Part shown: in pieces, positions 6,643-43,510 of the stretch
Position numbering within the stretch: the first letter of the stretch is position 1
Layout of the letters: each line of letters starts with the position of its first letter
NCBI RefSeq assembly: GCF_017313265.1
Contig: NZ_JAFLQZ010000001.1
Coordinates: 124,001 to 188,000 of the forward strand
Direction: 5' to 3'
From: Hymenobacter telluris
Lineage (GTDB): Bacteria > Bacteroidota > Bacteroidia > Cytophagales > Hymenobacteraceae
DNA length: 64,000 nucleotides
Notes under the pieces: generated by a model
What the model was told of the DNA's origin: nothing
The model's database searches: none
The model's input: the letters and a program-made list of their open reading frames with translations, nothing else
Made by a program: the position numbers and the translations under genes

Positions 6643-9600
6643 TTATTGCAGTACCACTTTGCGGGTGAGCACCTGACCGGCCACCTGCACGCGCAGCGTG
6701 TAGAGGCCGGTAGCCAAGCCACGGGTGGAAAGCTGCTGCTCGCCGGTGGCCGCCAACGGCTGCGCTAGTACCCGCTGGCCGAGTGCGTTAACCAGCTCCA
6801 CGGTGCCAGCTCCTTTCAGCTCAGTGAGGCGCAGGGTAAGCTGGCCGGTAGCGCTGGGGTTCGGAAACACCGACAGCGCCGCGCTGTTGCTGCTGCTGCG
6901 GGTGCTGAGCGGCGTAGTGCTGATGGTGAAAGCGCCCGTGAAGTCGTTGCTGCCGTAACCTGATACTGCTACGTAGTACAACTGACCCGACGTGAGGCCC
7001 GTGATGTTTACGGTGCCTACGCTGGTGTTGGAAAGGTTGCTGCCTTGGCAAAATACCTGCGTAAATGGTCCGGCCGAGCAGCTAGGGCTGCTGAACACGC
7101 GCACCATACCGGCGGGGTTGCCCGCCAAGTACAGGGTCCGGCTAGCACTGGCAGCAGTGAAGGTGAACCATACATCCCGAGGGGCGCTGGCTGGTGAGCA
7201 GCTAGGTGCCGTCAGAAGGCCCGGCTGCACGCTGGTGCTGGAGCCGCTGTTCGACCCGGTAATGCTACCCGTGCCAAGTGCTATGGCCGTGCAAGGCTCA
7301 TCGTTGTTGGGCGTCGGCTGGTTGAAAGTCGCGGTTTTGGTGTTGTTGCTAGGGTCACTATCGGTGCCGCCGTTGGGCAAACTGGCCGTAACCACAATGG
7401 TATTGGGGCCACTTGGCGCTACTACGCCCTGCGTGAAGGTAAGCTGCTGCGTAGCGCCCGACGCCAGCGTCAGGGCAGTGAATACTTGCTGCTGCGGCGT
7501 GCCACCGTTCAGCGCGTAACTCAACGTAACCGAGGTAAGCGTAACGGTGCCGTTGTTGCGAATAGTTACCGTTACGGGGTTGGTGCCCGGCGTAGCAGGC
7601 GTCACCGGCGAATCGATGCTCAGTAACTCCACGTCGTTGGCCGACGGCGAGAATTCGTAAGCCCCGATGTCGGGTGGGTTGTTGCGCGTAACTCCGGCAA
7701 AGTCGAGCGGTACGCGCGTGAGCGTGGTGGGCGTGCCCGTGTTGTTGAGGTTGGCCGCCGAAGGCCGCAGGTCGGAGCTAGACCGGAAACGTGGGTCCAC
7801 AGACACCGAGTTCTGGTCGAAGGCGCTGTTGTTGAGGACCTGCCAGGCCGTGAGGGTGGCCGCGCCGCCGCTGGTAGCGGTGGTGGCGGTGCCGTAGTAA
7901 CCCACGTAAGCATTGGTGCCCGTGCCCACGTACAAGTCGTTGTAGTTCGACGTCATAGTAGGTGGCGCAGCGGCGGTGTAGTACACGTACACGGCGTAGG
8001 CTGCCGTGCTGGAAGGGCGCGTTACCGAGAAGATGTTGTTGCGCAGCGTGATATTAGAGGCGGCGTACTGGCTGTAGGCTCGTATAGCCGTTCCCGTAGA
8101 AGTGTCGTCCAGGGAAACCGAGTTGTGGTAATAATCAACGTAATCGGAGTAGTAGTTGTAGATACCGTACGTGATATTGCCGCCATTAACGTTGTAAATC
8201 AAGTTGTTGGCCACCAGAATAGGCGACGCTGCCGTACCGTCGGAATAGTAGATGTACAGGCCGTACATGGTCGACGTGGAAGCGGAAGTACCCGTAAACG
8301 GATCATGAATGCGGTTGCCCACTACCGTCGCGCCCAGGTTGTAGTACACATACAGGCCGTAGAAGGTACTTACCCCGCTACGAGTGAGCCGGCTGATGTC
8401 GTTGCCCACGTACTGCGCGTCGGCCTGGTAGGCGGCATACACGCCGTAGAAGTAGAAGTTGCCGATGGTGTTGTTGCGCACGATGTTGCCCGTGGAGCGG
8501 GTGGTGGTGCTGGTGCCCATCAGCGTCAGGCCGTAGTAGCCGCCGTTGATGGTGTTGCCTTCCAGCAGCAGGTTGTTGGCCGCGTTGCCGCCCGAGGTAG
8601 CCGACGTGGCACTACCACTCACCACGACGCCCGCGAAGAAGCTGCTGGTTGAGGCCTCGGAAGTGGTGATGGTGCAGTTGCGCACAATGTTGTTGTCGGC
8701 CTGGTTCGTAATAAACAAGCCCCAGCCATACGTACCCGGCGAGCCGGCATTGGTCGCATCGATAGTGAGGCTGTCGAGCGTTACATAATCAGCACCGTTC
8801 AGGGTAACTACGGCCCGTTGGTTGGTGTTGCTTGAGCCGAACCGGATGGTGCTGCCGTTGCCGTTAAAGGTTACACGGTTGGTGGCGCTGGCCCCGCTGA
8901 TGGGCGACAAGCTGAACTGCTCGGTATAAGGGCCACCACTCACGTTAAAGGTCACGGCCGCAGCTACTCCGCTCTGGTTCAAGGCCGTAGCTGCATCTGT
9001 GAAGCTGGCAAAGTTGGTGCCGCTCGTTGGTTGGGCGCTGTTGATGGTGTAGATGCCGGTTAAGGACGTGTAGAGCGTAACCGTTTGGGTGTTGTTGCTG
9101 GCATTGGTATCGGGGTTGCCGTTGGGCAGGCTACCCGTTACTGTCAGGGTATTTGCACCTGTTACCAGATTGGCTGGGGTAGTAAAGGTGAGGGCGCGAC
9201 TAGTGCCGGAGGCCAGGCCACCCGTCAGCGTGAACGTCTGAGCCACCGGCGTACCGCCATTCAGCACATAAGCCAGGCGCACCGTATTCAGCACCGAGCC
9301 GCCGTTGTTGAGTACCGTAACTGTTACCGGGCGGGCACCAGCCAGCACTGGCGCAGTGGGCGAGTCGATGCTGACTACCGCTACATCATCGGCCACAGGC
9401 GAAAACTCATAGGCACCTATATCGGGCGTAGTGCCACGGGGTGCCCCGGTAATATCCTGCGTAACGCGGGCGAGTGGGGTTGCTGTATTGTTGAGTGGGC
9501 TGGCCGTGGGTTGCAGGTTGCCGGTAGCCACATTCACAAACTGCGGGTCGGCGTCCACGCTGTTCTGGTCGTAGGCACTGTTGTTGGCCGTTTTCCAGGT

Positions 9601-10935
9601 GGTCAGGGTGGCATACTCCGTACCAACGTAGTAGCCGGTCTGGGCATCGGTGCCGCCTACTACCAGGTCGTTGTTGTTGGACACAATGCCGTTGCCAGTA
9701 GCCGAGGAGAAATACAAGGCGAAGTTGGTGCCGCTGCCCGAGCGGGTTACCTGCACCACGTTGTTACGGAACTCGGCAGCCAGCCCGGTGGTGTGATAAA
9801 ACCCGTACGCCGTGGAGGTGCCAGTAGTGGTTTGGTTGTCAATGCTGACAGTGTTGTGGTAGTAGCGGGCTGAACCCGAGGCGCCGTTGTAAAGGCCGTA
9901 CACTGTGCCACTGCCATCCAGGTTGTACACCAGGTTATTGATAATGAAGTTGGGGCTGTTGGCCACGGTGGCGGCGGTGCTGGTGGTCAGGTAGATGCCG
10001 TACGTGGCGGCAGTAGAGGCAGATGCTCCGCCAAAAGGCCGGTGAATTCGGTTCTTCTCTACGGCCGCGCCGCTGGTGCCAGCCCCTAGCGAAATACCGT
10101 AAAATGTGCTGACCGTAGTCCGGGTTGGGCGGCTGATATCATTGCCGATAACTTGCAGGCTACTGGTATAGTCAGCATCAATTCCATATAGATAGAAATT
10201 CTGCACCGTGTTGCCCTGAATAAGGTAGCCGTCCAGGATGTTAGTAGCATTGCCCACTACCTTAATGCCGTAGTAACCACCCTGAATGGTGTTGTTCTGT
10301 ACCGTGAGGTTACTGCCCGCGTTGCCGCCGGTGGTAAGCGAGGTAGCAGAGTTGTTGGCCACAATCCCCACAAAGTTGGTGGATGACGTGGACGACGTGC
10401 TGCTGGTAATAGTGCAGTTGTTGATGGTTACGTTGTCGGCGTCGTTGAGCACCTGCACGCCCCAGCCGTAGGTAGCGGTGCTGGTGCCGCCCACCGTGGC
10501 ATCCACCGCCAGGTTGCTGAGGGTCACGAAGTCGGCGCCGTTCAGCGTAATAACCGCCCGCTGCGCCGAGGTGCCCGACCCGAACTGAATGATACTGCCA
10601 CCCCCGTTGAACGTAACGCGGTTGGTGGCGCTGCTGCCTGCAAATTGGTTTAGCGTTATTTGTTCAGTGTAAGGTCCGCCGCTCACCGTAAACGTGACCG
10701 GGCCGCTCACACCGCTGGTATTCAAGGCATTTGCAGCGGCCGTGAAGCTGGCGTAGTTGGTACCGCTAGTAGGCTGCGCACTATTAATGGTATAAGCGCC
10801 AGAAAGCTGCGCCATTGCCATTGGGCTGGTAAGTAGCAGCAAGGCCACCAGCCAGTTTCTAAGGCCGAGTCTCAGGGTGATCCTCCGGCCTCGGCCAGCC
10901 TGGGAGGAGGTAAGCGTAAGAGTAGAGTTGTGCAT
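6643..10935 (-). CDS. Secreted right-handed beta-helix protein with T9SS sorting domain
   Basis: A 1430-residue exported protein. After an N-terminal signal (hydrophobic stretch LVALLLLTSPMAMA) it has two homologous halves, each opening with YTINSAQPTSGTN (about residues 43 and 623). Each half has parallel beta-helix repeats (NNTIQGGYYGIKV, VGNDISR) followed by a CARDB-like domain (SIDSP...LNNGG; about 510-620 and 1098-1205). Then comes a PPC-like region (about 1210-1345) with PRDVWFTFTA and YYVAVSGYG. The last 80 residues form a type A T9SS sorting domain (LSVFPNPSATGQL ... ATGLYTLRVQVAG ... RKVVLQ). It is probably carried to the cell surface or released. Beta-helices of this kind bind or cleave polysaccharide, but no catalytic triad is evident. 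A perfect terminator follows. Confidence 0.9.
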   Translation of the reverse strand: MHNSTLTLTSSQAGRGRRITLRLGLRNWLVALLLLTSPMAMAQLSGAYTINSAQPTSGTNYASFTAAANALNTSGVSGPVTFTVSGGPYTEQITLNQFAGSSATNRVTFNGGGSIIQFGSGTSAQRAVITLNGADFVTLSNLAVDATVGGTSTATYGWGVQVLNDADNVTINNCTITSSTSSTSSTNFVGIVANNSATSLTTGGNAGSNLTVQNNTIQGGYYGIKVVGNATNILDGYLIQGNTVQNFYLYGIDADYTSSLQVIGNDISRPTRTTVSTFYGISLGAGTSGAAVEKNRIHRPFGGASASTAATYGIYLTTSTAATVANSPNFIINNLVYNLDGSGTVYGLYNGASGSARYYHNTVSIDNQTTTGTSTAYGFYHTTGLAAEFRNNVVQVTRSGSGTNFALYFSSATGNGIVSNNNDLVVGGTDAQTGYYVGTEYATLTTWKTANNSAYDQNSVDADPQFVNVATGNLQPTASPLNNTATPLARVTQDITGAPRGTTPDIGAYEFSPVADDVAVVSIDSPTAPVLAGARPVTVTVLNNGGSVLNTVRLAYVLNGGTPVAQTFTLTGGLASGTSRALTFTTPANLVTGANTLTVTGSLPNGNPDTNASNNTQTVTLYTSLTGIYTINSAQPTSGTNFASFTDAATALNQSGVAAAVTFNVSGGPYTEQFSLSPISGASATNRVTFNGNGSTIRFGSSNTNQRAVVTLNGADYVTLDSLTIDATNAGSPGTYGWGLFITNQADNNIVRNCTITTSEASTSSFFAGVVVSGSATSATSGGNAANNLLLEGNTINGGYYGLTLMGTSTTTRSTGNIVRNNTIGNFYFYGVYAAYQADAQYVGNDISRLTRSGVSTFYGLYVYYNLGATVVGNRIHDPFTGTSASTSTMYGLYIYYSDGTAASPILVANNLIYNVNGGNITYGIYNYYSDYVDYYHNSVSLDDTSTGTAIRAYSQYAASNITLRNNIFSVTRPSSTAAYAVYVYYTAAAPPTMTSNYNDLYVGTGTNAYVGYYGTATTATSGGAATLTAWQVLNNSAFDQNSVSVDPRFRSSSDLRPSAANLNNTGTPTTLTRVPLDFAGVTRNNPPDIGAYEFSPSANDVELLSIDSPVTPATPGTNPVTVTIRNNGTVTLTSVTLSYALNGGTPQQQVFTALTLASGATQQLTFTQGVVAPSGPNTIVVTASLPNGGTDSDPSNNTKTATFNQPTPNNDEPCTAIALGTGSITGSNSGSSTSVQPGLLTAPSCSPASAPRDVWFTFTAASASRTLYLAGNPAGMVRVFSSPSCSAGPFTQVFCQGSNLSNTSVGTVNITGLTSGQLYYVAVSGYGSNDFTGAFTISTTPLSTRSSSNSAALSVFPNPSATGQLTLRLTELKGAGTVELVNALGQRVLAQPLAATGEQQLSTRGLATGLYTLRVQVAGQVLTRKVVLQ

Positions 10936-39539: not shown

Positions 39540-40130
39540 ATGTCTATGGCTATTATTTTGCTGGCAGCCGGGTCTTCGTCGCGCCTCGGTCAGCCCAAGC
39601 AGCTACTCCAATACCAAGGCCAAACCCTGCTGCGCCGCGCCGCCGAAACCGCAGTAACGGCAGCAGCTGGTACCCCGGTGGTAGTGGTGACGGGGGCTTT
39701 GCACGAAGAGTTATTGCCAGAACTTGCTGGGTTGCTGGTACAAACGGTGCGCTGCCATACCTGGCAATTAGGCATGGGCGCTTCATTGAAAACGGGCCTC
39801 GCCGCGTTGGAAAACAAAGGCCCTGCTTTGCACAGCGTACTGGTTATGCTCTGCGACCAGCCATTTGTTACGCCGACTTTATTACAGCAATTACTGACTG
39901 CGCACAACACCACCGGTCAGCCGATTGTAGCTGCTCAGTACGGTGAGGTGCGCGGAGTGCCGGTTCTGTTCGGAGCCGAAGCACTGCCGCTACTTCATCA
40001 GCTACCCGACGCCGCTGGCGCCAATCAACTCCTGAAACAGCATCCGCAACTGGTAGCCACTGTGCCGTTTCCGGAAGGAGCCATTGATGTGGATACGCCT
40101 GAGCAGTATGCGGCGCTGCTAGCCAAGTAG
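39540..40130 (+). CDS. Molybdenum cofactor cytidylyltransferase-like nucleotidyltransferase (MocA-like)
   Basis: A 196-residue nucleotidyltransferase of the MobA/MocA type. The nucleotide-binding signature AIILLAAGSSSRLGQPKQLL opens the protein and the metal-binding Asp lies in VMLCDQPFVT. Next to a PaoC-like enzyme and XdhC it most likely attaches CMP to molybdopterin, giving the MCD cofactor used by Pao-type enzymes. The cofactor form is inferred from context. It is last in the operon. Confidence 0.85.
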   Translation: MSMAIILLAAGSSSRLGQPKQLLQYQGQTLLRRAAETAVTAAAGTPVVVVTGALHEELLPELAGLLVQTVRCHTWQLGMGASLKTGLAALENKGPALHSVLVMLCDQPFVTPTLLQQLLTAHNTTGQPIVAAQYGEVRGVPVLFGAEALPLLHQLPDAAGANQLLKQHPQLVATVPFPEGAIDVDTPEQYAALLAK

Positions 40131-40223
40131 CAGCTTGTGGGCAGCATGGCTGCCCGCCTTGTGTTGCAACTACTGTGGCGAATTATCGAACTTGGGGCAC
40201 TTTGGCTTCCTTGCCCATTCATT

Positions 40224-41597
40224 ATGCCTGAAAAGACGCAAACCCCGCCGCCCGCCTACTTCCTCTCCCTTAGCCTGGAAAACGTGCGCAGCTTCGGCGA
40301 GAAGCAGACGATTTCCTTCGCCCGCCCCGACGGCCGTCCCGCTCAATGGACGATTATTCTTGGTGATAATGGGGTGGGTAAAACAACGGTTTTGAAGTCG
40401 TTGGCGGCATTAATGCCAACTGAACAACCGCCACCGGCTGGTAAATATGGTCCAGCTTATTTTAGCTTTCGTCGCCCAGAGTGGCAGTTGAGAAGAAATA
40501 AAGGTGAGAAGCCGACTTTCATGTATTTCACTGCACGTGGTGGTGCATTACTTTCTGATCCGGATTGGTTGGAAAAAGCATCTCGTGAAATAGGAATGAT
40601 ATTGGAATTTCTAAGTCCTAGTTCTAAACTTAGATCTTCTAATGAGTTCATGGATAAAGATTATCCCGAAGCAAAAACGATAATTTGCTATGGTTATGGT
40701 GCAGGAAGATCAATAGGTAATTCTACACTAGGGCAAGTACAGGATATGGCCGATACATGCATAAGTTTATTTAACGATAAGGCAGATTTACTTAATCCTG
40801 AAGAGTGGTTTTTGCAAGCTGATTATCGTGTTAAATCTGACTCATATGATAGGCGTACTAAACAGAATTTTATACAATTACATACTGCTTTGCTCAAGGT
40901 GTTAGAGGATGTAGATATGATAAAAGTTTCCCCTGCGACTTCAGGCGGTAATCCTGAACAAGGGTTGCAATTTCATACTCCCTACGGCTGGGTACGCCTG
41001 CGCGACATGAGCTTGGGCTACCAGACGCTGGCAGTGTGGCTAACGGACTTCGCCAGCAAGCTCTTTATTCGCTACCCCGACAGCCCTAATCCGCTGGAAG
41101 AACCAGCCATTGTGCTCATCGACGAAATCGACCTGCACCTGCACCCCAGCTGGCAGCGCAAGCTCATCGGCTTCCTGAGTGGTATCTTCAAGAACACGCA
41201 GTTCATAGCTACCGCTCATAGCCCGTTGGTGGTACAAGCCGCCGGCGACCAGCCCAGCGGGGCCAACGTCGTCTTGCTTAAGCGTGAAGGCGACCAGACC
41301 ATCGTGTACCAGGGCGAAGACCTGCCCGACGTGCGCAGCTGGCGGCTGGATCAGATTCTGAGCAGCGAACTGTTCGACGAAGTGCCGGCCCATTCGCCTG
41401 ATACGGAGAAGAAACTCCAGCGCCGTGATGCGCTGCTGGCGAAGTCGCGCCTTTCAGCCAGCGAGAAGAAGGAGTTGACTGAGTTAAACGAATGGGACAA
41501 CATGCAGCCAGTGGGCGACTCACAACCCGAGCGCAAAGCCGCTGACGTGCTGCGTGAGCTGGCTCGCAAGCTGGGCAAACAGGACCTTCTTGACTAG
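40224..41597 (+). CDS. AAA/ABC-type ATPase of a Septu-like defence pair (PtuA-like)
   Basis: A 457-residue SMC/OLD-type ATPase. The Walker A motif GDNGVGKTT is at residues 47-55, an ABC-type signature region around SLGYQTLAVWLTDF at about 263-276, Walker B VLIDEID at 297-303, and the H-loop TAHSP at 330-334. No TOPRIM domain follows, so it is not OLD. An HNH nuclease gene starts 8 bp downstream, the arrangement of Septu PtuAB and of retron-linked ATPase/HNH modules. In those systems the pair senses phage and degrades nucleic acid. The stretch 40350-40985, between the Walker A and signature lobes, is strikingly A+T-rich compared with both ends. Assignment to Septu is tentative. Confidence 0.78.
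   Translation: MPEKTQTPPPAYFLSLSLENVRSFGEKQTISFARPDGRPAQWTIILGDNGVGKTTVLKSLAALMPTEQPPPAGKYGPAYFSFRRPEWQLRRNKGEKPTFMYFTARGGALLSDPDWLEKASREIGMILEFLSPSSKLRSSNEFMDKDYPEAKTIICYGYGAGRSIGNSTLGQVQDMADTCISLFNDKADLLNPEEWFLQADYRVKSDSYDRRTKQNFIQLHTALLKVLEDVDMIKVSPATSGGNPEQGLQFHTPYGWVRLRDMSLGYQTLAVWLTDFASKLFIRYPDSPNPLEEPAIVLIDEIDLHLHPSWQRKLIGFLSGIFKNTQFIATAHSPLVVQAAGDQPSGANVVLLKREGDQTIVYQGEDLPDVRSWRLDQILSSELFDEVPAHSPDTEKKLQRRDALLAKSRLSASEKKELTELNEWDNMQPVGDSQPERKAADVLRELARKLGKQDLLD
40350..40985. other. A+T-rich foreign-looking segment within the ATPase gene
   Basis: Codon use switches from C/G-ending to A/T-ending codons just before the Walker A lysine and switches back at the YGWVRLRDMSLGYQ segment. The frame is intact throughout. 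The segment encodes about residues 43-254, the variable middle of the ATPase. Confidence 0.75.
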
Positions 41598-41605
41598 CTG
41601 CCCGC

Positions 41606-42430
41606 ATGATCAGAATCCGGAAGCGGGCCACCGCGCCCGCCATGCTCACCACGTTGGGTACCGCCGACCGGCAGCGGTTGGAAGGTATCTTCGCCGCCGA
41701 CCCGGCTGCTTGTCAGGTGCCGCGTAACCAACAACTGGTTGCCAAGCCCGCCATCTACGGGGCGGCGGCCGTGAAAGCCGCGCTGGCTGCCGATCAACGC
41801 GGCAAGTGCTGCTACTGCGAATCGAAATTTGAGGCCACGGGCTTTGGCGATGTAGAGCACTTCCGTCCCAAGGCCGGAGTGCGGCAGCAGCCGAAATCGG
41901 CTCTGGAAAAGCCAGGTTACTACTGGCTGGCATATGAGTGGTCGAACCTGCTATACAGCTGCGAAATTTGTAACCGCCGCCACAAAAGTAACTGGTTCCC
42001 TTTACTGAACCCCGCGCGGCGTGCCCGCCAACACGACGACCAATTGTGGCAGGAGCGGCCTTTGTTGCCCCACCCATGCCGCACCGACCCGGCCACCGAG
42101 TTGACCTTTAATCGGCACGTAGCCGTGGAGAAGAACTTGTCTGCGCGGGGTGTGGCCTGCATCCGGGCATACGGCCTGAACCGCCCGCCGCTACGCCAGC
42201 GCCGCTACGAATTTCTGGAAACTCTCAAGCTAATTCGCTTCGCCGCCTCTCTGGATATCGACGGAATGACGCCGACCGACCTGCGCCTTACGCTTACCGA
42301 CCTACACATGACCAAGACGGAAGCACGACGGTACGTAGCACGGGCGCGGCAGGTCTGGGAGCAAGCGGCCTTCGACGCAGCTGAATATGCGGGCATGATG
42401 CGGGCTAACTTTCCGCATTTGCCACATTAG
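41606..42430 (+). CDS. HNH endonuclease of a Septu-like defence pair (PtuB-like)
   Basis: A 274-residue nuclease. A zinc-binding CCYC (about residues 68-71) is followed by the HNH core DVEHFRPKAGV (His of the beta-beta-alpha-metal fold), then YEWSNLLYSCEICNRRHKSNWFP with the second cysteine pair and the Asn and His of the motif. This arrangement matches the HNH proteins found with retrons and with PtuA. The C-terminal 120 residues are helical and basic. It would cut nucleic acid once activated by the ATPase encoded 8 bp upstream. Codon use is G+C-rich like the chromosome. A strong terminator follows. Confidence 0.82.
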   Translation: MIRIRKRATAPAMLTTLGTADRQRLEGIFAADPAACQVPRNQQLVAKPAIYGAAAVKAALAADQRGKCCYCESKFEATGFGDVEHFRPKAGVRQQPKSALEKPGYYWLAYEWSNLLYSCEICNRRHKSNWFPLLNPARRARQHDDQLWQERPLLPHPCRTDPATELTFNRHVAVEKNLSARGVACIRAYGLNRPPLRQRRYEFLETLKLIRFAASLDIDGMTPTDLRLTLTDLHMTKTEARRYVARARQVWEQAAFDAAEYAGMMRANFPHLPH

Positions 42431-42436
42431 AATGCA

Positions 42437-42469
42437 ACAAAAAGCCGCTTTGTTCAAAGCGGCTTTTTG
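42437..42469. terminator. Bidirectional intrinsic terminator
   Basis: The stem AAAAAGCCGCTTTG with complementary CAAAGCGGCTTTTT-type arm has A and T tails on both strands. It serves the HNH gene and the convergent lipoprotein gene. Confidence 0.88.
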
Positions 42470-42490
42470 CTTTCTGAAACCGTTCATTGC

Positions 42491-43294
42491 TTAGCGCATT
42501 ACCATGTTTTTCAGCGAGATGATATACTCGTGAGCGGCGGCATCGTGGCGAATGGTGTAAGTGGTGGGGAAGTATTTGCCCGTTACCTCATACACAGCGG
42601 GCTGCTTGATGGCCTGTTCAATGCTGACGCCCGGTACTAGCAAGGCCTTGGTGAACATAGGTTCAATGAACGTAACGCGGCCATCGTAGGTGCCATAGAT
42701 GAAGGTGTGCGAGAAAGTGCCACTAGGGGCGTATTCGGGGCTGGTGGGGTCCACCCAGTGGCGGCCCATCATGGGCACGGTACGGCCCGGCGCAACGTTA
42801 GGTGGCGTGATGTAGCCAGCTGGTAGTTTGCTGGCCGCCGGAAAAATGTCGCCTTTCGGGTCGTCGAGCGTGATGCTGTGCTGCACTGCGGTAGGCTGCA
42901 TGTAGAAGTGGGCATCAAAATGCGGAAGCGTATAAATCTGATTTGGTTCGTGGCCGGTAGGGTTCCAGTCAAGCGAAATGTGGTCGAATGGCATTGCAGC
43001 AGTGGCCTTGGCGGTGGGTAGCGCTACGTCGTACATGGTACCTATAGCCGGGGTGGCGGGCAGGCTGTTCAAAGAAGCCTCCGACACGGCCACGCCAATT
43101 TCGGTGGGGGTGCCGTTGGCGTCAGTAGCCACAAAGCTGCGGGCCGTACCGCTGCCTACTTGCACCTTGGGGCCGTAAGCCGTGGCGGGTTCGTCGTTGT
43201 CTTTGTCGCAGGCCACCAGCAGTGGGCTCGTACATGCCAGTACCGCCAGCGCAAAGCGGCAACTTGTAAAGAGAGAGGGGGTAAAGTTGTTCAT
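42491..43294 (-). CDS. Lipoprotein, TTHB210-like/DUF5602-type (tentative)
   Basis: A 267-residue protein with a lipoprotein signal peptide and lipobox LLVAC (cysteine at residue 29). The mature part contains NQIYTLPHFDAHFYM, GRHWVDPTSPEY and a C-terminal FPTTYTIRHDAAAHEYIISL. The HFDxHFY motif suggests a metal-binding family I recall as TTHB210-like/DUF5602; this name is from memory. Location is the periplasm or outer membrane. A TAnnTTTG promoter lies 20 bp upstream of the ATG. Confidence 0.7.
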   Translation of the reverse strand: MNNFTPSLFTSCRFALAVLACTSPLLVACDKDNDEPATAYGPKVQVGSGTARSFVATDANGTPTEIGVAVSEASLNSLPATPAIGTMYDVALPTAKATAAMPFDHISLDWNPTGHEPNQIYTLPHFDAHFYMQPTAVQHSITLDDPKGDIFPAASKLPAGYITPPNVAPGRTVPMMGRHWVDPTSPEYAPSGTFSHTFIYGTYDGRVTFIEPMFTKALLVPGVSIEQAIKQPAVYEVTGKYFPTTYTIRHDAAAHEYIISLKNMVMR

Positions 43295-43313
43295 AGCGAG
43301 TAAAGTGAGGACG

Positions 43314-43321
43314 CAAAAATA
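43314..43321 (-). promoter_or_regulatory. Promoter -7 element TATTTTTG for the lipoprotein gene
   Basis: An exact TAnnTTTG match on the minus strand, 20 bp upstream of the ATG, at the edge of an A+T-rich intergenic stretch (43316-43400). That stretch also carries TACTTTG on the plus strand, one base short of the consensus. Confidence 0.65.
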
Positions 43322-43510
43322 CTGTTTATTAAATATAGTTATTTGTTAATAAATGATTAATTAATGTCGCTGAGCAGTAGAATTACTTTGTAATAAGATG
43401 GTATAATTCGCCTTCTTGATGTGCAGGAAGAATGGGCCGATAGGGTCCACCCCAACCTGAACCTTGGAAACCCGTTACTTACTCGTTGCCACGCTGCTAT
43501 TCCTTATTTC

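Follow-up and report, generated by a model that had tools for sequence, protein, structure and literature searches.

A hypervariable and apparently exchangeable A+T-rich cassette in the Septu ATPase PtuA of Hymenobacter telluris

Introduction

Why should a single bacterial gene have an A+T-rich interior between two ends of host-like composition? The question is raised by ptuA, the gene for the ABC-type ATPase of a Septu defence system, in a stretch of 64,000 nucleotides from Hymenobacter telluris (NCBI RefSeq assembly GCF_017313265.1, contig NZ_JAFLQZ010000001.1, positions 124,001 to 188,000 of the forward strand), which is referred to here as the window. A preliminary description, made from the sequence alone, reported an A+T-rich segment at 40350-40985 within an unbroken reading frame. 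It suggested that this middle module, variable among relatives, had been exchanged in this organism by recombination with a low-G+C donor.

The explanation that we favour, with a probability of about 0.6, is that the locus, at a fixed position in the chromosome, encodes a stand-alone Septu defence system of PtuA and PtuB, that its ATPase carries an exchangeable cassette, HVR1, whose diversity is kept through phage escape, and that this cassette recognises the trigger of the system. Exchange of the cassette in PtuA is well supported by sequence comparison, in which hypervariability, reassortment, mosaic edges, a low G+C content at third codon positions (GC3) and coupling of the PtuA tail with PtuB were all found. 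The role of HVR1 as the part recognising the trigger is probable.

Structure and composition of ptuA

The product of ptuA matches the PADLOC model PDLC00304 (PtuA) with an E-value of 9e-131, and the Pfam families AAA_21, AAA_15 and AAA_23 exceed the cut-off. The motifs GDNGVGKTT and VLIDEIDLHLHP are present in the PtuA alignment, and the Walker A and B motifs of a Septu PtuA were thus found. The ATG at 40224 agrees with the starts of the orthologues; an alternative upstream GTG at 40137 is possible. The parts of the gene are listed below together with ptuB. Identities are medians over pairs of 21 genes, namely that of H. telluris and 20 close Hymenobacter orthologues.

40224-41597, + strand: ptuA, Septu ABC-type ATPase, 457 residues from the conserved ATG
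40224-40403, + strand: N block, residues 1-60, conserved, G+C-rich to about residue 38; median pairwise identity 0.88
40362-40388, + strand: Walker A, within the N block, motif read from the sequence
40335-40979, + strand: A+T-rich tract, residues 38-252, from a change-point fit; GC3 0.28 inside and 0.77 outside
40404-40682, + strand: HVR1, hypervariable cassette, residues 61-153; median identity 0.14, GC3 0.28
40683-40817, + strand: Q block, residues 154-198, with CYGYGAGR and SLFNDKADLLNPEEWFL; median identity 0.73
40818-40979, + strand: module 2, residues 199-252, three allele types in the genus; median identity 0.25
40980-41333, + strand: C1 block, residues 253-370, ABC signature region and Walker B; median identity 0.87, GC3 0.80
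41334-41594, + strand: C-terminal tail, residues 371-457, co-varies with PtuB; median identity 0.51
41606-42430, + strand: ptuB, nuclease partner, HNH-type by its family; PADLOC PDLC00339 (PtuB), E 5e-81

The A+T-rich middle with its G+C-rich ends is confirmed, and the reading frame is open over the full length of the gene. The GC3 values of residues 1-46, 47-246 and 247-457 are 0.74, 0.28 and 0.75, respectively, and the G+C content goes down to 0.347 at 40600-40899. The change-point fit that defines the tract, with a log-likelihood gain of 57, agrees closely with the segment described earlier. The background GC3 has a mean of 0.76 and a standard deviation of 0.08 (164 open reading frames (ORFs) of at least 250 residues in 359 kb of the same contig). 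The best 200-codon stretch of ptuA differs in GC3 from the rest of the gene by 0.44 with the GTG start and by 0.47 with the ATG start. This within-gene contrast ranks first among 168 genes, with 0.33 for the runner-up, and was attained in none of 2000 within-gene codon permutations. Among the 197 genes with 200 codons or more, a 200-codon stretch with a GC3 of 0.285 or less occurs in two, one of them being ptuA (0.28). It is important to note that the conserved columns of the middle are also lower in GC3 (mean over the 21 genes 0.54 for 35 columns, against 0.75 and 0.79 for the 34 and 101 columns of the two ends); the low GC3 of the middle is therefore not due to amino-acid choice alone. An assembly error as the cause was ruled out, since the pattern is found in 21 separate assemblies with open frames.

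Hypervariability and reassortment in Hymenobacter

The 20 close orthologues came from a search of 120 genomes of the genus, that of H. telluris included. The middle has a GC3 of 0.32-0.60 in all 20, below both the N-terminal (0.61-0.83) and the C-terminal end (0.61-0.85). Fitted gene by gene, a low-GC3 tract covers most of HVR1 in 21 of 21 genes; it starts at residue 34-89 (59-70 in 16 of the 21) and ends anywhere in 151-253. The mean GC3 in the genus is 0.33 for HVR1 and 0.81 for C1. The A+T-rich middle is thus common to homologues in high-G+C hosts, and the suggestion that its exchange is peculiar to H. telluris does not hold.

A recent and single import of the middle, in H. telluris only and from a low-G+C source, would agree with several features of this gene. 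In none of the other genes is the GC3 of module 2 as low as here (0.26, against 0.33-0.84 in the orthologues), the Q block is conserved as protein yet also A+T-rich (0.24, against 0.20-0.82), and the tract stops abruptly at residue 252. Such a single event is too narrow, because all 20 orthologues have the low-GC3 tract; as a full account it is contradicted, and we regard it as very improbable. The block exchanged in H. telluris seems to comprise HVR1, the Q block and module 2, and the latest exchange may have brought in all three as one tract (about 40335-40979).

The variability of the middle that had been proposed is borne out. The median identity of HVR1 is 0.14, against 0.88 for the N block and 0.87 for C1. 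Alternative middle modules are abundant: with types defined at 40% identity, the 21 genes contain 20 types of HVR1 and three of module 2. Of the 210 Hymenobacter pairs with a C1 identity above 0.6, 208 have an HVR1 identity below 0.30. The nearest orthologue among those compared, from H. daecheongensis (L003/L033), is 94% identical to H. telluris PtuA in residues 253-370 and 93% in residues 371-457, while HVR1 and residues 199-252 are each only 21% identical. This comparison upholds the exchange of the middle by recombination, although not as a single event in H. telluris. In the closest host pair (L007 and L008, rpoB identity given as 1.00) the identities are 0.97 for N, 0.91 for C1 and 0.88 for PtuB, and 0.19 for HVR1. 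For the pair L003 and L014 the HVR1 identity is 0.71 and the tail identity is 0.45.

The identities of different segments are nearly uncorrelated among the 21 genes (Spearman -0.22 to 0.31), and HVR1, module 2 and C1 are combined with one another almost without restriction. The value for the tail and PtuB is 0.85, and the method is therefore able to detect linkage. Mantel tests were made on 19 of the 21 taxa, as two genomes gave no rpoB match. For the tail and PtuB r is 0.87 (p 0.0005). The HVR1 distances give r values of -0.04 to 0.14 with every other segment, PtuB and host rpoB (all p above 0.13; for rpoB r 0.06, p 0.26). Trees were compared for HVR1, module 2, C1, the tail and PtuB, the N and Q blocks not being included, and the tests are rough for such short segments. 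In the approximately unbiased (AU) test each tree is rejected on the data of the other segments, and the disagreement among trees is in line with the exchange first proposed. The Shimodaira-Hasegawa (SH) test does not reject the tail and PtuB trees on each other's data (0.38, 0.28).

The PtuA tail and PtuB (window positions 41334-42430) appear to be inherited as one unit, which may be a hint at a docking surface.

The wider PtuA clade

Searches with a clade profile at E 1e-70 gave matches in 27 of 204 genomes of the family and 8 of 395 of the phylum, Hymenobacter and the H. telluris genome included. Five of the 27 (G028, G071, G081, G088 and G109) are members of a control family and not of the clade. 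In an alignment of 44 clade members HVR1 has a lower GC3 than C1 in 42 and a lower GC3 than N in 41. Among 16 other clade members the HVR1 identity is below 0.30 in 53 of the 54 pairs with C1 identity above 0.6, the family-wide pair counts excluding L154-L159 and L195. Two control PtuA families of five sequences each (L023-L027, and L071-L074 with L076, L075 being excluded) have no such pair (0 of 10 and 0 of 9), and the corresponding region has a GC3 below both N and C1 in only two of the ten sequences.

In another genus, the DNA of the pair L066 and L069 is 91-98% identical over residues 1-60 and 84-100% identical beyond residue 165, and identity drops to 31-42% over residues 61-135. To judge from these values, the pair represents a clean swap of the region 61-135.

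Two PtuA proteins of the hypervariable clade (L155 and L159) occur in one genome, G734; their HVR1 sequences have no relative among the 44 members at E 1e-3. A relative from a metagenome-assembled genome of Verrucomicrobiota (L044:3001-4297) is matched in two separate pieces (query residues 7-71 and 125-450) and is possibly broken. Scans of viral contigs gave one relative with A1 as query and 33, mostly distant, with A2; an ORF was obtained from 31 of these distant loci, and 26 of the 31 were included in A3. Viral contigs scanned with two further queries gave no relatives. A plasmid search with the whole PtuA returned 91 records, all below 60% identity, with about 28% in the best rows.

Origin of the low GC3

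Several observations, given in this and the next section, weigh against the exchange of a recognition cassette. The N block partly tracks host rpoB (r 0.46, p 0.0005), and module 2, the tail and PtuB do so weakly (r 0.20-0.22, p 0.015-0.027). Module 2 is linked with C1 (Mantel r 0.31, p 0.0035), and the module 2 tree survives the SH test when set against the C1 data (0.18). The AU test rejects the tail against PtuB as well. Both L007 and L008 are from metagenome-assembled genomes, the control families are small, and L024-L026 are nearly identical. Among the 44 clade members no relatives of HVR1 were found outside one genus (blastp, E below 1e-3), no database search with HVR1 only having been made. 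Finally, HVR1 has a lower GC3 than C1 also in clade loci of only 32-48% G+C, and it does so in 8 of 10 control-family sequences, where the drop is milder (difference -0.05 to 0.24).

The last two observations bear on the donor. A low-G+C donor, as proposed in the preliminary description, is plausible, but none was found. Nor is such a donor the sole route to the pattern, since it recurs in 42 of 44 members and at low-G+C loci too. The low GC3 may instead arise in place: HVR1 alleles would be too divergent to pair, would miss the gene conversion that raises G+C (or codon selection), and would drift to an A+T-rich mutational balance. It would fit this alternative that GC3 rises with the G+C content of the locus with a slope of only 0.62 for HVR1, against 2.22 for C1 (44 members), and that recognition parts of restriction enzymes in Hymenobacter are low in GC3 as well (see below). 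It would also fit that the one cassette common to L003 and L014 is A+T-rich in both hosts despite a synonymous divergence (dS) of 0.62. However, the right edges of the tracts vary over residues 151-253 and often enter well-aligned conserved blocks. Moreover, one module 2 type has a GC3 of 0.58-0.84 in Hymenobacter and about 0.2-0.35 (20-codon blocks) in L195, from another genus of the same family, which looks like two sources. Recombination tracts from an A+T-rich pool are favoured on account of the variable tract ends, which extend across conserved protein, and of the two compositions of this module 2 type; origin in place is considered unlikely, though a serious alternative.

Constraint on HVR1 and its possible role

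If HVR1 were an unconstrained linker that has drifted, a low confidence of the predicted structure would be expected, and HVR1 is indeed the poorly predicted part of the AlphaFold model of PtuA (10-residue means of 31-51). Only W87, R91 and G107 within residues 62-152 are uniform in half of the 44 members (22-24). Only L003 and L014 have a cassette that is highly similar in both genes. Its residues 58-105 have a dS of 0.62 and a nonsynonymous divergence (dN) of 0.01, with dN/dS given as 0.01, while residues 106-150 are much less kept (dS 1.06, dN 0.37, dN/dS 0.35). The second part is compatible with a linker; the first part speaks against it. In addition, hydrophobic residues make up 39% of HVR1 and aromatic ones 12% on clade average, which is not the usual composition of a disordered linker, and two other PtuA families lack such variability. 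The linker is disfavoured by the first part of the cassette and by the two control families, and it is the least credible of the explanations considered. The shared cassette suggests instead that the HVR1 alleles are old and at least partly strongly kept, like specificity types, rather than fast-mutating.

The model (pLDDT 70, pTM 0.69) has an ABC head and superimposes on solved PtuA structures from Septu and retrons with Z scores of 19.6-25.6; an earlier model from 16 sequences (pLDDT 48.6) was not used for the fold searches. HVR1 follows the Walker A helix and precedes the YGYGAGR block, a position from which a bound ligand could influence the ATPase. In the favoured explanation PtuA is modular, with a conserved ATPase engine (N and C1), HVR1, an allelic module 2 and a tail inherited with PtuB. 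Homologous recombination via the conserved blocks would swap HVR1 with a variable length of flank, drawing on a pool of A+T-rich alleles. HVR1 would recognise the trigger supplied by the phage, or some phage product that acts on the PtuA-PtuB complex; binding of the trigger would change the ATPase, PtuB would cut nucleic acid and the infection would abort. The diversity of HVR1 would be maintained since phages escape common alleles.

The same comparative pattern would also result if HVR1 varied to evade phage-coded inhibitors or decoys binding PtuA, or to keep PtuA assemblies separate. The ATPase head is a plausible target; the available part of one report describes a prediction of medium confidence in which a phage protein covers the Walker motifs of the OLD ATPase (PMC13096335). 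Unalignable cassettes and the low dN/dS of residues 58-105 in L003 and L014 fit discrete binding specificities better than an escape by single point changes. They are not decisive, and inhibitor evasion or separation of assemblies is judged quite unlikely.

Trigger recognition by HVR1 would be of some consequence, as the recognition of infection by stand-alone Septu does not appear to be settled in those parts of the literature that were available. About 20 natural cassettes on a near-constant engine make recognition directly testable through cassette swaps and phage range. Other defence genes could also be scanned in a simple way for exchanged recognition parts, by looking for an A+T-rich, hypervariable interior between ends of host-like composition. 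In a broader formulation, which we hold to be somewhat short of an even chance, one clade of Septu ATPases would be an allele-based immune receptor. It would have a conserved motor, an interchangeable cassette from a long-lived A+T-rich pool, and a tail-nuclease unit that reassorts separately, and lineages would re-target the resident system by recombination, much as restriction specificity domains are exchanged.

Comparison with other systems

Among the closest known systems, Septu of E. coli (PDB codes 8ee4, 8eea and 8sux) has the same pair of ABC ATPase and nuclease genes, and its PtuA fold gives Z scores of 21.9-23.4. According to the available part of one report, an E. coli Septu requires the PtuA Walker motifs and the PtuB HNH motif and cleaves tRNA-Tyr (PMC13096335). 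Another source, likewise available in part, states that PtuA and PtuB of retron-Eco7 jointly deplete tRNA-Tyr and that another Septu is reported to act on nicked DNA (PMC11555353). The effectors of type I-A retrons (PtuA-PtuB of Ec78/Eco7 and Ec83) are the top structural matches of the PtuA model, with Z up to 25.6. They differ in having a reverse transcriptase beside ptuAB; none is present among the genes directly flanking ptuAB in H. telluris. Control by multicopy single-stranded DNA (msDNA) is not expected here, because the neighbouring genes do not encode a reverse transcriptase.

AriA of PARIS, like PtuA an ABC ATPase partner of a nuclease, is more distant than the known PtuA proteins. 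As a precedent for a sensor, it matches PtuA by profile (E 2.4e-8), and the fold search gave Z scores of 16.7 for the AriA-Ocr complex and 14.9 for a PDB entry titled 'sensory subunit'. The value for AriA is, however, little above those of SMC/Rad50 heads (up to 15.0), which belongs among the points against the proposed role.

The evolutionary pattern resembles that of the type I hsdS subunits and the target-recognition domains of type IIG/IIL enzymes, which have a conserved frame and specificity cassettes recombined at flanking sequence. In Hymenobacter the hsdS and type IIL-like recognition parts share the low GC3 of HVR1. For hsdS, ORFs at 29 of 30 loci (L105 had no usable ORF pair) have a mean GC3 of 0.49, against 0.75 for flanking ORFs, and are lower at 27 of the 29, with one tie and one higher. 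The second-strongest GC3 contrast of the sampled genes is that of an enzyme which we take to be type IIL-like; the placing of its target-recognition region is likewise our assumption. In 17 sequences (that of H. telluris, L126 and L129-L143), the GC3 is 0.50-0.61 in the region from about residue 626 to 800 and close to 0.87 in residues 1-475. The H. telluris enzyme itself (L082:951-3788, - strand) has 946 residues, and its GC3 in 25-codon steps is 0.32-0.76 over residues 526-800 and mostly 0.8-1.0 elsewhere. Only the evolutionary pattern is common with hsdS; PtuA has no Pfam match to Methylase_S (PF01420) at E 0.001.

Domain movement (DOMO) shifts domains between two positions at repeats, which was not seen in PtuA (PMC3077401). 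The targets of diversity-generating retroelements, which include diversified putative sensors of NTPase defence systems (PMC10907252), are comparable to HVR1, but HVR1 is replaced as a whole cassette with change of length and not by point mutations. Hypermutation by such an element, or a silent store of copies, is disfavoured: a search of the H. telluris genome (47 contigs) for a second HVR1 copy or template repeat with positions 40000-41500 as query (E 0.001) found only the query itself; 40 of 58 candidates were scored, short repeats may escape, and no search for a reverse transcriptase was made. Among the literature matches listed, a hypervariable exchangeable cassette in PtuA is not described; the main Septu structure papers may mention it.

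The chromosomal site

The ptuB start follows the ptuA stop after 8 bases, and the ptuB product has no Pfam match. One flank of the pair carries a MobA-like gene for an NTP transferase, the other a TTHB210-like gene; beyond the latter is what we take to be an MFS transporter gene. At least one of these neighbourhood genes lies near ptuA in 19 of the 20 close orthologues (flanks of 1.5-3 kb), the exception being L022 with a flank of 1.5 kb. The MFS gene was surveyed at 30 loci taken from 61 genomes with a match. Among the 29 loci other than that of H. telluris, 17 lack any match to ptuAB but have one to mobA within 1.5 kb, three have ptuA or ptuB, three have the TTHB210-like gene alone and six have none of these. 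Since mobA occurs without ptuAB at 17 loci and ptuA or ptuB is present at three, ptuAB is gained and lost at one resident site.

The site from the MobA-like to the MFS gene (window positions 40130-43421) is occupied by ptuAB in some Hymenobacter and empty of it in others. In another genome a fragment (G100:C211:7915-8016) matches PtuA residues 1-34 with 74% identity and one stop, about 1.1 kb before the MFS gene (9112-10554); it looks like the remnant of a Septu system at the same site. Two different PtuA-like ATPases are found about 7 kb apart in four genomes (G028:C7, G071:C13, G081:C2 and G109:C495), perhaps as parts of a composite defence island.
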